The notes under the pieces: generated by a model | Told to the model about the DNA's origin: nothing | Seen by the model: the letters and a program-made list of their open reading frames with translations, nothing else | Database searches by the model: none | Assembly: GCA_000612485.1 (NCBI GenBank) | Contig: CP007494.1 | Span: 2,418,001-2,482,000, forward strand | Direction of reading: 5' to 3' | Length of the DNA: 64,000 nucleotides | Source of the DNA: Bordetella holmesii ATCC 51541 | GTDB lineage: Bacteria; Pseudomonadota; Gammaproteobacteria; Burkholderiales; Burkholderiaceae_B | In this document: piece after piece, positions 35,877 to 42,070 of the stretch | Layout: each line of letters opens with the position of its first letter | Position numbering within the stretch: the first letter of the stretch is position 1 | Translations under genes and position numbers: made by a program

Positions 35877-36442
35877 GTTTCTTTCCTAGTTTTGGACTTC
35901 TTTGGACTTCGATTCGCCGGCTTGCTTGTATATATAGTTCTTGTTTTTCAATAATACATAATTTGTCTACGGCAGTCTTTAAGTTTATCTCCAGATAAGT
36001 GTTTCGGATGATCGGAAAAGCCGACAGCTTCCTGAAAGAATCCTCGTTGGGCTCTCGGGCAGACATCGATTGTCGGGTGTCCGCATCAAATACCTAAAAT
36101 CAGCTTGTTCTGAATTATCCGTACCTTTGGGCGGTGCATGGTTAAGCGATGAGGCATTGCGACTTCGCGTAGAACAGAATGAGTGCGGACAAGTCTGGTG
36201 TGGTTTGCCCGTTATGCCGGTTAAAAATCCGTAACGTGGCAATACTGAATTAAGTAGTCGTATGATGAGTCCCGCTGACAAATTGTGTTTTAAAAAGTGA
36301 AAACTTTTGCTGCACCATTTTGGCGCATGAGCTTTGGCTGCACTGGCTGGTCTGGATCGGCGGTACGATAGAGCCTGCATGTCCGCCCATGGCTAGGCGG
36401 ACCGCCCGCCGCGCGCTGCACGGGTCTTATATACGGAATTCC
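35877..36442. other. AT-rich intergenic region between the H-NS-type gene and tldD
   Basis: These 566 bases contain no gene that can be supported. A 10-base direct repeat (tttggacttc, 35891-35910) lies just upstream of the H-NS-type start. The stretch 35920-36000 is AT-rich. Open frames here lack family features. It probably holds the promoters of both divergent genes. Confidence 0.5.
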
Positions 36443-37903
<1,461 letters not shown>

Positions 37904-37963
37904 GCCGGGCTGGGCCAGAATTCCGGATGACGGTGCGGTTTTTTTGTGCTAGAGTTTTTCCCT

Positions 37964-38047
37964 ATGAATTTCGCGTCCACCACCTTTTATTTTTATTTTT
38001 TTGGTTTTCTGAAGCCGCTGGCGGAGGAAGGGACGCGCTCAACCTAG
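37964..38047 (+). CDS. Phe/Tyr-rich leader peptide upstream of aroG
   Basis: This 27-codon frame (ATG at 37964, TAG at 38045-38047) contains six Phe and two Tyr, seven of the eight packed in eight codons as FYFYFFGF (about 37985-38008). All codons in this run are AT-rich (TTT, TAT), unlike the GC-rich genome. It is followed by a terminator and an alternative pairing partner for that terminator. This is the layout of pheL-type attenuators, in which a ribosome stalled for lack of charged tRNA-Phe or tRNA-Tyr lets transcription continue. The ribosome site is weak (TAGAG upstream). Function is inference from layout and codon content. Confidence 0.75.
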   Translation: MNFASTTFYFYFFGFLKPLAEEGTRST

Positions 38048-38077
38048 TACAGAATCCCCCCGAAAAAGCCGCCAGCG
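38016..38077 (+). promoter_or_regulatory. Antiterminator pairing of the aroG attenuator
   Basis: cgctggcgg (38016-38024) is exactly complementary to ccgccagcg (38069-38077), the left arm of the terminator. Forming this 9-bp helix prevents the terminator. A further pair, cgcgtcc (37972-37978) with ggacgcg (38031-38037), brackets the Phe/Tyr codons and could be the pause structure. Confidence 0.65.
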
Positions 38078-38094
38078 TCACTGGCGGCTTTTTT
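38063..38094 (+). terminator. Attenuator terminator before aroG
   Basis: A 13-bp stem (aaaaagccgccag / ctggcggcttttt, loop cgtca) ends in a T run. It lies 16 bases after the leader-peptide stop and 71 bases before the aroG start. Confidence 0.88.
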
Positions 38095-38165
38095 GTTGCC
38101 GTCAGCCTGGTGGGTTTGCGGGAACGACCAAACCATCCATACCGATCCCACCGCAGGAGTACACC

Positions 38166-39239
38166 GTGTCACACAATACCGACGACCTTCGCATTCGTGA
38201 AATCAAAGAGCTCAACCCGCCCGCGCACGTGATGCGGGAGTTCCAATGCACCAAGGAAGTGTCGGAAACGGTATTTGCCGCGCGCAATGCCATGCACCGC
38301 ATTCTGCACGGCATGGACGATCGCCTGATCGTGGTCATTGGTCCATGTTCCATTCATGACACCGAGGCGGCTCTCGAGTATGCCCGCCGACTCAAGCCCC
38401 TGCGTGACCAGTTGTCGGCCGATCTGGAGATCGTCATGCGCGTCTACTTCGAGAAGCCGCGCACCACTGTGGGCTGGAAGGGGTTGATCAACGACCCGAA
38501 CCTGGATGGCAGCTTCGACATCAACAAGGGTGTGCGCGTAGCGCGCGAACTGTTGCTGGAGATCAACAGCCTGGGATTGCCGGCGGGATGTGAGTTTCTC
38601 GACATGATCACGCCGCAGTACATTGCGGATCTGGTGGCCTGGGGCGCCATTGGTGCGCGTACCACCGAGAGTCAGGTGCATCGTGAACTGGCCTCCGGTC
38701 TGTCCTGCCCGGTGGGCTTCAAAAATGGCACCGACGGCAATGTAAAAATAGCGGTCGATGCCCTCAAGGCCGCCTCGCAGCCGCATCATTTTCTGTCCGT
38801 GACCAAGGGCGGGCATTCGGCGATTGTGTCGACCGCCGGTAATGAAGACTGTCACGTCATCTTGCGGGGTGGCAAGGCGCCCAATTACGACGCTGCCAGC
38901 ATCGAGGCAGCTTGTCAGGACCTGTCCAAAGCAGGCCTGGCCCAACGGGTGATGGTCGACGCCAGCCACGCCAACAGCAGCAAGAACCCCGAGAACCAGC
39001 CGCGGGTGGCCGACGACATCGCGCGTCAGATGGCATGCGGCGATTCGCGCATCGTCGGCATCATGATCGAAAGTCACCTCGTGGGCGGGCGCCAGGATCT
39101 CGTGGCGGGGCAGCCGCTGACCTACGGCCAGAGCATCACCGATGGTTGCATCGACTGGGATGCGTCGGTGCAGACGCTGGAGCGGCTGGCGCTGGGGGTG
39201 CGCGAGCGCCGCCGTGCCACGCAGGTCAGTGGTAAATAA
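38166..39239 (+). CDS. aroG: 3-deoxy-7-phosphoheptulonate synthase (class I DAHP synthase)
   Basis: This 357-residue enzyme condenses phosphoenolpyruvate and erythrose-4-phosphate in the first step of the shikimate pathway to Phe, Tyr and Trp. Class I-alpha features are seen: VVIGPCSIHD with the metal-binding Cys, MRVYFEKPRTTVGWKG, GARTTESQ, CHVILRGG and MVDASHANS. The start is a GTG with AGGAGT upstream. The Phe/Tyr leader before it suggests attenuation by those amino acids. IS1001-like copy 2 begins two bases after its stop; its 8-bp target includes the last Lys codon and the stop. Confidence 0.95.
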   Translation: MSHNTDDLRIREIKELNPPAHVMREFQCTKEVSETVFAARNAMHRILHGMDDRLIVVIGPCSIHDTEAALEYARRLKPLRDQLSADLEIVMRVYFEKPRTTVGWKGLINDPNLDGSFDINKGVRVARELLLEINSLGLPAGCEFLDMITPQYIADLVAWGAIGARTTESQVHRELASGLSCPVGFKNGTDGNVKIAVDALKAASQPHHFLSVTKGGHSAIVSTAGNEDCHVILRGGKAPNYDAASIEAACQDLSKAGLAQRVMVDASHANSSKNPENQPRVADDIARQMACGDSRIVGIMIESHLVGGRQDLVAGQPLTYGQSITDGCIDWDASVQTLERLALGVRERRRATQVSGK

Positions 39240-39241
39240 AA

Positions 39242-40547
39242 GGTTCATCGCGGAATAGCGTGGAGCCGTGCTTGATTGCCGTTACGCTTGATCCTTGATT
39301 TTTCAAGGATCAAGGCCGGGATCATGCTGGACCGCAAGACGATCGAGAGGTTGGGTGGGTGGGAAGGTTATCGGGTGGAGCGGGTCGTGTGGCCTGAAGG
39401 TGAGAGCCGGACGGTCACGATTTACCTGAAGCCTTCAGCGCGAACGATGCACTGCGAGCACTGCGGCAACCGATGTCGGCAGGTGCATGAGACGACCACG
39501 CGCCGGGTGCGGGATCTGCCGCTAATGGCGCTGCGAGTGACGCTGGTAGTGCCGCGTCGGCGGGTCTGGTGCGAGCAGTGCGGTGGACCGCATCTGGAGA
39601 GGCTGAGCTGGCTGGGCCGTTACCAGCGAGTGACCGACCGGCTGGCCGAGGCGGTCAGCCAGTTGCTTGAGTCCAGCAACATTCTGGCCGTGGCGCGCTT
39701 CTTCCAACTGGGTTGGCACACGGTCAAGGCGCTGGACAAGGCCCTGCTGCGACGGGCGATCCAAGAGCCGGACTGGAGCCAGATCCACTACCTAGCGATG
39801 GACGAGTTCGCTCTACACAAGGGCCATCGTTATGCCACGGTCGTTGTCGATCCGATCCGCCGTCAGGTGCTATGGATCGGTGATGGCCGCTCGCGCGAGA
39901 CGGCCAGAGCCTTCTTCGAACAACTGCCAACTGGGGTTGCCCAGCAGATCCGGGCCGTAGCGATCGACATGACGACGGCCTATGAGCTGGAGATCCAGGC
40001 CAACTGCCCCAACGCCGAGATCGTCTACGACCTGTTCCACGTCGTGGCCAAGTACGGCCGTGAAGTGATAGACCGGGTGCGTGTAGACCAAGCGAACCAG
40101 TTGCGGCACGACAAGCCGGCCCGCCGGGTGATCAAGTCCAGTCGCTGGCTACTGCTGCGCAATCGCAAAAACCTCGATCCGTGCCAATCGGTAAAGTTGG
40201 ACGAGTTGCTCCAGGCCAACCAGCCCTTGCTCACCGCTTATCTGATGCGCGATGAGCTCAAACAGCTGTGGTTCTACCAACACCCCGGCTACGCCCGCCA
40301 GGCATGGGATCACTGGCTGCAACAGGCTCAGGGCAGCGGCATCGCCGCCTTGGCTCACTTCGCGCTCAAGCTAAAAGCCTATCTGCACGGGATTCTGTCT
40401 CGCTGTCGCCACCGGCTCAACACCAGCATCGTCGAGGGCATCAACAACACCATCAAAGTCATCAAGCGCCGCTCCTACGGCTACCGCGATCAGGAGTACT
40501 TCTTCCTCAAGATCCGGTCTGCATTCCCCGGTATTCCTCGATGAACC
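39242..40547 (+). mobile_element. IS1001-like element (ISL3 family), copy 2, 1306 bp
   Basis: Same ends and length as copy 1. It is flanked by the 8-bp duplication AAATAAAA (39234-39241 and 40548-40555). The insertion overlaps the aroG stop without changing the protein, and lies upstream of a broken FAD oxidase. Confidence 0.95.
39324..40544 (+). CDS. tnpA: ISL3-family transposase (IS1001-like copy 2)
   Basis: Intact 406-residue ISL3 transposase, with the same motifs as copy 1. It differs from copy 3 at a few residues (for example KRRSYGYR in place of KRRAYGYR). The ATG at 39324 was chosen for the usual length; the leader hairpin precedes it. Confidence 0.92.
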   Translation: MLDRKTIERLGGWEGYRVERVVWPEGESRTVTIYLKPSARTMHCEHCGNRCRQVHETTTRRVRDLPLMALRVTLVVPRRRVWCEQCGGPHLERLSWLGRYQRVTDRLAEAVSQLLESSNILAVARFFQLGWHTVKALDKALLRRAIQEPDWSQIHYLAMDEFALHKGHRYATVVVDPIRRQVLWIGDGRSRETARAFFEQLPTGVAQQIRAVAIDMTTAYELEIQANCPNAEIVYDLFHVVAKYGREVIDRVRVDQANQLRHDKPARRVIKSSRWLLLRNRKNLDPCQSVKLDELLQANQPLLTAYLMRDELKQLWFYQHPGYARQAWDHWLQQAQGSGIAALAHFALKLKAYLHGILSRCRHRLNTSIVEGINNTIKVIKRRSYGYRDQEYFFLKIRSAFPGIPR

Positions 40548-40661: not shown

Positions 40662-42070
40662 ATGAACGCACCTCTGCACTCTGAAACCTTGCGCCGTCCC
40701 GTACCCGCTGCCTGCCTGGATGGCCTGAAGGCAATCTTTGGCGATCGTTTGTCGCTTGCGGCGGCTGTTCGAGAGCATCATGGCAGGGACGAGTCGCCGT
40801 ATCCGCCCATGCTGCCCGACGCCGTCGTGTTTGCGCACTCCACCGAAGAAGTCGCGCAGGTGGCTCGGCTGTGCAATGCGCACCGCGTACCGTTGATACC
40901 CTATGGCGCCGGTTCTTCGCTGGAGGGGCATCTGCTGGCAGTGCAGGGTGGGATAAACCTGGACCTGTCGCAGATGAATCAGTTGCTCGCCGTCAACGCT
41001 GAAGACCTCGCCGCCACGGTGAAGGCCGGCGTGACGCGCAAGCAACTCAATGAAGAAATCCGCAGCACTGGCCTGTTTTTTCCGATTGACCCGGGAGCTG
41101 ACGCGAGCCTGGGGGGATGGCGGCGACTCGGGCTTCGGGCACCAACGCCGTCCGGTACGGGACGATGCGCGAGAACGTGATGTCGCTGACCGTCGTGACG
41201 GCCGACGGGCGCATCGTGCGCACCGCGGGCCGGGCGCGCAAGTCGTCGGCGGGTTATGACCTGACGCACATCTTCGTCGGCAGCGAGGGCACGTTGGGCA
41301 TCATTACCGAAGTCACCATCCGGCTCTATCCCCAGCCGGAAGCCGTGTCGGCCGCCATCTGTAACTTCCCGACCCTGGATGACGCCGTCCAAAGCGTCAT
41401 CGAGATCATCCAGATGGGGGTGCCGGTTGCGCGAGTCGAGTTCATGGACGCGGCGGCGGTCAAAGCCGTCAATCTGCACAGCAAACTGTCGCTGCGCGAG
41501 ACCCCCATGCTGGTGTTTGAGTTCCACGGCAGCCCCGCTGGTGTACAAGAGCAAGCCGAGACGGTGCAGGCCATTACGGCCGAGCACAGTGGCATGGACT
41601 TCGAATGGGCCGAGCGCCCGGAGGACCGCAATCGCCTGTGGACTGCGCGTCACAATGCGTATTTTGCCGGGCTGCAATTGCGGCCGGGCTGCCGCGCCAG
41701 CACCACCGATGTGTGTGTGCCGATTTCTCGCTTGGCGGACTGCGTGCGCGAAACAGTCGACGAACTGGACCGCGCCAGCTTTCCGTATACCATCGTGGGG
41801 CACGTGGGCGATGGAAATTTTCACGTATTGATGTTGCTCGACGGAGAGAACGAGACCGAGTGGCAATAGTCGGAAGCCATCAATCACAGTTTGGTGCGGC
41901 GCGCGATTGCCGCCGACGGCACATGCACCGGAGAGCACGGGGTAGGGCTGCATAAGATGCAGTTCATGGAGGAAGAGCACGGCGAAGATGCCTTGGCGCT
42001 CATGCGCAGTCTCAAGCATGCCTTCGACCCCAACAATATCCTCAATCCGGGAAAAATCTTCGCCTGGTAG
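40662..42070 (+). pseudogene. FAD-linked oxidase, D-lactate/glycolate dehydrogenase-like, frameshift and stop
   Basis: This would be a flavoprotein dehydrogenase of about 469 residues for D-lactate or glycolate (FAD-binding PCMH fold). It shows IPYGAGSSLEGHLLA and, in the second frame, VGSEGTLGIITEVT. The C-terminal GTCTGEHGVGLHKM and FDPNNILNPGKIF follow. One base is missing in the G run at 41111-41116; adding it gives ASLGGMAATRASGTNAVRYG. A TAG at 41867-41869 interrupts the second frame, after which the C-terminus continues normally to 42070. Two independent lesions make it a clear pseudogene. It lies upstream of the glc genes. Confidence 0.88.

Follow-up and report, generated by a model that had tools for sequence, protein, structure and literature searches.

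A predicted Phe/Tyr leader-peptide attenuator upstream of aroG in Bordetella holmesii and its counterparts in other proteobacteria

The window analyzed here, a stretch of 64,000 nucleotides from Bordetella holmesii ATCC 51541 (on one contig of a 3.70 Mb genome), carries tldD and aroG in tandem. The 262 bases that separate these genes contain a short leader frame, a terminator and two complementarities (Table 1). The aroG product scores 584.1 bits with the NCBIfam model for AroG, for which the cutoff is 568, and a search of solved structures places the E. coli Phe-regulated DAHP synthase among the best matches. In the alignment, the residues that we take to be the Phe site of the E. coli enzyme appear identical in AroG. 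Because these residues look alike, Phe may control both the AroG enzyme and the aroG gene.

A second class I DAHP synthase is encoded in the window genome (locus L109, G000:C1:3528376-3529416); it is 59% identical and is not preceded by such a leader. Two DAHP synthase matches are present in 14 of the 15 genomes of the genus. Downstream of aroG, an ORF for an ISL3-family transposase (window positions 39276-40544, plus strand) starts 36 bases past the aroG stop codon, so that the insertion sequence comes after aroG. Further along the same strand, the ORF at 41117-41869 has a match to the C-terminal domain of FAD-linked oxidases, but its match to the FAD-binding domain is restricted to the final 36 of 139 positions; this gene may be truncated near the insertion sequence.

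According to the preliminary description of this DNA, a 27-codon frame containing six Phe and two Tyr codons lies ahead of aroG, with seven of these codons falling within eight (FYFYFFGF) and written as TTT or TAT. Direct recomputation recovers the frame at 37964-38047, and re-reading of 37985-38008 recovers the run; the one aromatic codon outside the run, codon 3, is TTC. In six frames of the 64 kb, this is the only run with at least six Phe/Tyr codons in eight. Inspection by eye revealed no Shine-Dalgarno-like sequence ahead of the leader ATG. An in-frame GTG at 37946 is situated inside the putative promoter, and the ATG at 37964 is therefore the likelier start codon.

Table 1. Features of the tldD-aroG region (window coordinates).
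Feature	Position	Strand	Remarks
tldD	36320-37903	+	same strand as aroG
Weak -35 candidate	37927-37932	+	ATGACG; 17 nt upstream of extended -10
Putative extended -10	37947-37955	+	TGC TAGAGT, TGCTAGAGT; ends 8 nt before leader ATG
Leader ORF	37964-38047	+	27 codons, MNFASTTFYFYFFGFLKPLAEEGTRST; ATG 37964, TAG 38045-38047; like leaders in 127/156 aroG-type loci
Segment 1 (protector 5' arm)	37972-37984	+	CGCGTCC 37972-37978, then ACCACC; pairs with 38031-38037
Regulatory codons	37985-38008	+	FYFYFFGF; all TTT/TAT but Gly
Segment 2	38016-38037	+	CGCTGGCGG 38016-38024 (antiterminator arm) to GGACGCG 38031-38037 (protector 3' arm); within leader frame (PLAEEGTR)
Segment 3	38063-38077	+	left terminator arm at 38063-38075; alternative pairing of 38069-38077 with 38016-38024
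Segment 4	38081-38094	+	right arm of the terminator, CTGGCGGCTTTTT, with U run; pairs with segment 3
aroG	38166-39239	+	class I DAHP synthase; GTG start preceded by AGGAG; NCBIfam NF006723 (AroG equivalog)

Four arms alternate along this region such that arms 1 and 2 form a protector helix, arms 2 and 3 an antiterminator, and arms 3 and 4 the terminator. Arm 1 lies just past the AUG and arm 2 just past the Phe/Tyr run. The 13-bp terminator that had been proposed is borne out: AAAAAGCCGCCAG (38063-38075) pairs with CTGGCGGCTTTTT (38081-38093) around a loop at 38076-38080. Also as proposed, CGCTGGCGG (38016-38024) is the exact complement of 38069-38077 at the left terminator arm, and CGCGTCC (37972-37978) can pair with GGACGCG (38031-38037) around the Phe/Tyr run. 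The sequence observations of the preliminary description are thereby confirmed. The predicted fold of 37960-38094 has an energy of -41.7 kcal/mol (z = -2.30), which was matched or beaten by 4 of 200 shuffles. A simple scan for terminators and promoters listed none of either in the leader region. In our reading, the terminator was missed because the rule calls for T residues after the stem, and the stem's A:U pairs consume them.

A comparison with relatives had been set beforehand as a test of this arrangement. Upstream DNA was collected from 171 DAHP synthase loci, comprising 80 named loci, 51 found via genus and family searches, and 40 fetched stretches that mostly represent one locus per further genus of the window's family (f1, called Alcaligenaceae in this analysis). 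Setting aside 15 paralog loci (L097-L111) left 156 aroG-type loci, which are drawn from betaproteobacteria, Xanthomonadales and Hyphomicrobiales. A detector that seeks an aromatic-rich ORF and, after it, a hairpin with a T run found a leader and terminator at 127 of these 156 loci, with 124 distinct leader sequences (L003 and L129 are one site). The same detector was positive at none of the 15 paralogous loci, of which L097 offers only 6 nt of upstream sequence, and in 1 of 156 reverse complements and 2 of 468 dinucleotide shuffles. The arrangement withstands this comparison: the leader frame, the Phe/Tyr codons, the terminator and the alternative helices recur well beyond the genus. The leader is present, for instance, in Cupriavidus lacunae (L007).

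Within the window's family, 71 of 76 loci are positive; this count spans those 76 loci, and 194 family genomes have a match. The detector found no element at the other five family loci (L138, L139, L145, L152 and L171), two of which come from genomes of 0.8 Mb. Overall, 29 of the 156 aroG loci are missed, and upstream DNA is short in only one of them (L065). Fourteen of the 29 were scored with a covariance model of the window's family, termed R1, and five of these match it (L059, L063, L072 and L077 with 39-43 bits, and L068 with 23.5).

Searches with R1 (E <= 0.001) yielded matches in three sets of genomes, 68 of 300 from the order, 10 of 369 from the class and 45 of 398 from the phylum, where strict filters drop weak matches and some weak rows correspond to the terminator alone. 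At this threshold, the window genome has no R1 site besides the leader and the antisense strand of its terminator. An aroG-like gene is present at 81 of the 87 loci fetched around R1 matches, some sites having been fetched twice. Among the six remaining loci, inspection of L226, L235, L236 and L237 uncovered no convincing leader. In L256, from a genome of the same class, R1 matches before a pheA-type gene (chorismate mutase/prephenate dehydratase), upstream of position 1650, and this match is a sign of likeness to pheL. In L218, from a genome belonging to the same order, an R1 match near the start of the reverse strand accompanies the frame VYNVYFYWYR, which is rich in Phe, Tyr and Trp; the ORF behind it has no Pfam match and is perhaps another gene under a similar leader.

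In the 71 family leaders, the aromatic residues are maintained and third codon positions vary. Phe is encoded by TTT 317 times and by TTC 70 times, and Tyr by TAT 114 times and by TAC 54 times. Possible causes of this preference for T are tRNA sensitivity or a need to keep the run unstructured. Indels of 3 nt occur in the aligned leader run, and single-base indels are present further 3' in at least two sequences (L157 and L158). The leader peptide is almost identical within the genus and near genera, and its ends diverge widely between families. Arm 2, CCGCTGGCGGAGGAAGGG, encodes the conserved PLAEEG at the end of the peptide. Trp codons are found in 7 of 71 leaders from the family, 2 of 12 from Oxalobacteraceae, 11 of 13 from Burkholderia-like organisms, and all of those from Xanthomonadales (9/9) and Hyphomicrobiales (11/11); these groups were picked by name and leader type, and the groups outside the family cover 45 of the 56 leaders in L003-L082, with 11 assigned to no group.

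The preliminary description called for a search for compensatory changes in the helices, and such changes are present in both the protector and the antiterminator. Our alignment, A1, includes 62 of the 71 family leaders (L086, L096, L117, L123, L125, L129, L131, L133 and L154 were omitted). Both sides have changed in five of eight protector pairs, four of nine antiterminator pairs and 2 of 11 terminator pairs, and 79.5% of protector cells are paired. For example, the protector arms CGCGTCC/GGACGCG of the window correspond to the compensated arms CGCAATCC/GGATTGCG in L130. When protector and terminator are pooled, 91.0% of cells are paired versus 87.6% in shuffles, a value reached by none of 500 shuffles with kinship ignored; sliding the arms by one to three columns reduces pairing to 39-56%. 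The pooled helices contain 34 double-change cells, in comparison with 12.5 in shuffles (0/500 reach this number, again ignoring kinship). Pooled pairs with double changes number 7 versus 4.5 (reached by 17 of 500 shuffles) and further pair types 21 versus 17.6 (reached by 18 of 500). The antiterminator is paired in 93.7% of cells versus 91.9% in shuffles (0/500) and in 23-60% when slid, kinship being ignored here as well. RNAalifold, applied to the leaders, proposed the terminator and a small hairpin only, and did not propose the protector.

We also compared the energies of duplexes between arms of the same species with those between arms of different species. This test used 68 of the 71 family leaders (all except L086, L096 and L154) and, as the other set, 52 of 56 leaders (all except L003, L006, L012 and L042). 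In the family set, own arms form more stable duplexes than arms from other species for both 1:2 (-19.30 versus -16.45 kcal/mol) and 2:3 (-24.60 versus -23.61 kcal/mol), with 0 of 5000 permutations reaching either difference when kinship is ignored. The corresponding energies in the other set, with kinship likewise ignored, are -15.35 versus -14.46 kcal/mol for 1:2 (4/5000 permutations) and -23.57 versus -21.76 kcal/mol for 2:3 (0/5000). Considered species by species, the 2:3 duplex is better than all 20 shuffles in 57 of 68 and 37 of 52 species, and the 1:2 duplex outdoes every one of 20 shuffled versions of its 5' arm in just 32 of 68 and 14 of 52.

A feature that the preliminary description did not mention is the promoter-like motif just ahead of the leader ATG, which implies a leaderless mRNA. 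The putative extended -10 of the window fits the pattern TGnTAnnnT, and in 68 of the 70 testable family leaders this pattern ends 6-9 nt ahead of the leader ATG; as background, the pattern occurs 9 times among 16273 upstream positions. For the two exceptions (L153 and L154), inspection by eye indicates that the detector chose an ATG other than the one situated 8 or 6 nt past the motif. Since sigma-70 promoters have about 7 nt between the -10 hexamer and position +1, the RNA in the window would start at about 37962. We conclude from this spacing that the leader mRNA of the window's family is probably leaderless, with its start at or near the AUG. Outside the family, the motif is at this fixed distance in just 4 of 55 testable leaders, and promoter-like boxes appear by eye to be farther upstream in Burkholderia-like and Oxalobacteraceae loci. 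Because the fixed spacing is rare outside the family, the leaderless state is not general. In Bradyrhizobium, leaderless mRNAs are reported to have an extended -10 of the form TGnTA upstream, according to the available excerpt of that study (PMC4842269).

The region thus combines the elements that define an attenuator: codons for pathway products in a cluster, an intrinsic terminator between the ORF and aroG, an antiterminator that excludes the terminator, and a protector helix that would be opened if a ribosome stalled. Of the pheL/trpL-like layout that had been recognized ahead of aroG, the leader and terminator recur at the 127 aroG-type loci noted above. Comparison strongly supports the earlier reading of the region as a Phe/Tyr attenuator, and we consider it highly probable that aroG is under the control of ribosome-mediated transcription attenuation. 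The frame and its codons, the three helices with compensatory changes, the promoter-like motif and the placement before aroG are established from sequence and its comparison; we infer from them where transcription starts, that the leader is translated, that termination takes place, that starvation leads to more aroG expression, and that charged tRNA is the signal.

Under the proposed mechanism, transcription would begin with the AUG (37964) or a few bases upstream of it, and such a start means that the ribosome would load onto the 5' end of the RNA. When Phe-tRNA and Tyr-tRNA are ample, the ribosome would cross the Phe/Tyr codons and segment 2 and reach the stop codon at 38045. With the ribosome past segment 2, segments 3 and 4 would pair and RNA polymerase would presumably halt near 38094, releasing a leader RNA of approximately 130 nt. 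A shortage of charged Phe- or Tyr-tRNA would be expected to stall the ribosome within codons 8-13. The footprint of a ribosome extends about 15 nt to each side of the P site. A stall with codon 8, 9 or 10 in the A site would cover arm 1, and a stall at codons 11-13 would place the ribosome between arms 1 and 2; in either position, the 1:2 helix should not form and arm 2 should be free. Free segment 2 would then pair with segment 3 ahead of the synthesis of segment 4, the terminator would not form, and aroG would be read. The decision would fall while RNA polymerase is still short of arm 4, as is also the case in other attenuators.

Folding predictions for the window bear on this scheme in both directions. 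The terminator is preferred on the full leader RNA under all maskings that were tried, and the switch must therefore be kinetic. When 37962-38003 is masked and the RNA ends before arm 4, the antiterminator folds with -23.1 kcal/mol. On the same truncated RNA without a ribosome, the antiterminator is already the minimum free energy structure (-25.6), and so the protector is not dominant in the window, a result that speaks against a simple picture. The protector of the window has an energy of -17.7, compared with -22.7 to -26.0 in the stronger protectors of L084-L091, and its weakness could permit leaky read-through. The folding program ignores the bulk of a ribosome, which, positioned at the stop codon inside the antiterminator loop, would block that helix.

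Other explanations of the region must be weighed against attenuation. The hairpin might merely terminate tldD, with the Phe/Tyr frame a coincidence of a T-rich stretch. The tldD gene does end at 37903 on the same strand, the simple scan (which also missed the present hairpin) lists no other terminator between the genes, and tldD is the usual neighbor in the window's family, where 31 of the 36 leader loci in L083-L133 have it in the examined flank. However, tldD is matched in the examined flank at only 20 of the 56 leader loci in L003-L082, leaving 36 without it; aromatic residues are kept in the 71 family leaders despite changes at third positions; and the helices that compete with the terminator exhibit compensatory changes. 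As the leader mostly occurs without tldD outside the window's family, we rejected this explanation, which is extremely unlikely.

It is also very unlikely that attenuation is minor, and that the short ORF instead encodes a functional small protein or the terminated RNA is a trans-acting sRNA. The near identity of the peptide in the genus and near genera would fit such a role, and both the RNA and the peptide of the leaderless trpL attenuator of Sinorhizobium are reported to be active in trans, as described in the excerpts available from two studies (PMC7298713, PMC10117765). Against this, the ends of the peptide are widely variable from family to family, in contrast to the aromatic run and the RNA arms, which are retained, and the conserved PLAEEG is what the arm CCGCTGGCGGAGGAAGGG encodes. 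The chance that the element is a riboswitch or a protein-controlled terminator whose ORF is unread seems almost nil. Alternative RNA folds are common to such systems, and the terminator by itself would suit them. Yet every Rfam family stays below its gathering score in the window, the aromatic codons are kept while their nucleotides change, and the four alternating arms explain the conserved pairing.

Comparison with known systems began with Rfam 15, in which no family reaches its threshold over the element. All being below threshold, annotation with Rfam would miss it. Membership in the Phe_leader family (RF01859) was rejected, because the window scores 22.3 bits, below the gathering score of 55, and the gene is aroG rather than pheA; Thr_leader (RF00506) was likewise rejected, with 28.2 bits against 55. 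The pheL attenuator of pheA consists of a Phe-rich leader, a terminator and an antiterminator. The window element shares a Phe-rich leader with a terminator and an antiterminator, and R1 also matches before pheA in L256. It differs from pheL in the gene that follows, in its Tyr codons and in a frame that runs through segment 2.

A Phe-Tyr-Phe leader peptide, AroR, precedes the DAHP synthase gene aroF in Corynebacterium glutamicum, and the excerpt of that work states that an attenuator transcript was detected (PMC4046766). A review that cites Neshat et al. 2014 indicates, in the portion available, that aroR-aroF responds to limitation for Phe and not Tyr (PMC11802643). Like aroR, the window leader places a Phe/Tyr peptide ahead of a DAHP synthase gene; compared by description only, and from partial text, it differs in belonging to another phylum and in having seven aromatic codons in eight instead of three in a row. 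The uORFC-13-1 motif of Acholeplasma, upstream of aroF, is described in an excerpt as a candidate uORF that has at least one Phe codon and adjoins a terminator (PMC8632094). The Phe-codon uORF and terminator before a DAHP synthase gene resemble the window element, whereas the ribosome-binding site, another base-paired part and the restriction to Acholeplasma and environmental sequences, all as given in that excerpt, set it apart. In Shewanella, an RNA element is predicted before the gene aroF for Tyr-sensitive DAHP synthase, and the excerpted table entry reads 'Attenuator sensing tyr-tRNA' (PMC2659441); the enzyme subtype is different from that of the window, and the excerpted description contains no Phe/Tyr run. 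The leaderless trpL of Sinorhizobium meliloti has its leader ORF at the 5' end of the RNA, according to partial text (PMC10117765). This arrangement is like that predicted for the window leader, with the difference that, as this text describes it, trpL senses Trp and controls trpE.

The preliminary description named no earlier attenuator for aroG in Bordetella. For the proteobacteria considered here, none is described among the matches listed in the open-licence literature. Attenuation of a DAHP synthase gene is nevertheless known in C. glutamicum, as the excerpts above indicate. The principle, Phe/Tyr attenuation of DAHP synthase, is thus known, and the present element represents a large new set of members.

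A wider reading, which we advance tentatively and give somewhat less than an even chance, is that these elements constitute one old and very widespread proteobacterial switch at the entry to the shikimate pathway that reads all aromatic amino acids. Its codon run would have been retuned by lineage, with mostly Phe and Tyr in the window's family and Phe, Tyr and Trp in Burkholderia-like organisms, Xanthomonadales and Hyphomicrobiales, so that shortage of any product would open the first enzyme. The switch would be leaderless in the window's family, and its terminated RNA may act in trans like that of S. meliloti trpL.

The element suggests a concrete and testable way in which flux into the aromatic amino acids could be controlled in many beta-, gamma- and alphaproteobacteria. 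Lineages differ in their use of Phe, Tyr and Trp codons, and this natural series bears on which charged tRNA meters the common pathway in each organism. The element also offers a case for studying attenuation with a leader ORF that lacks a ribosome-binding site.
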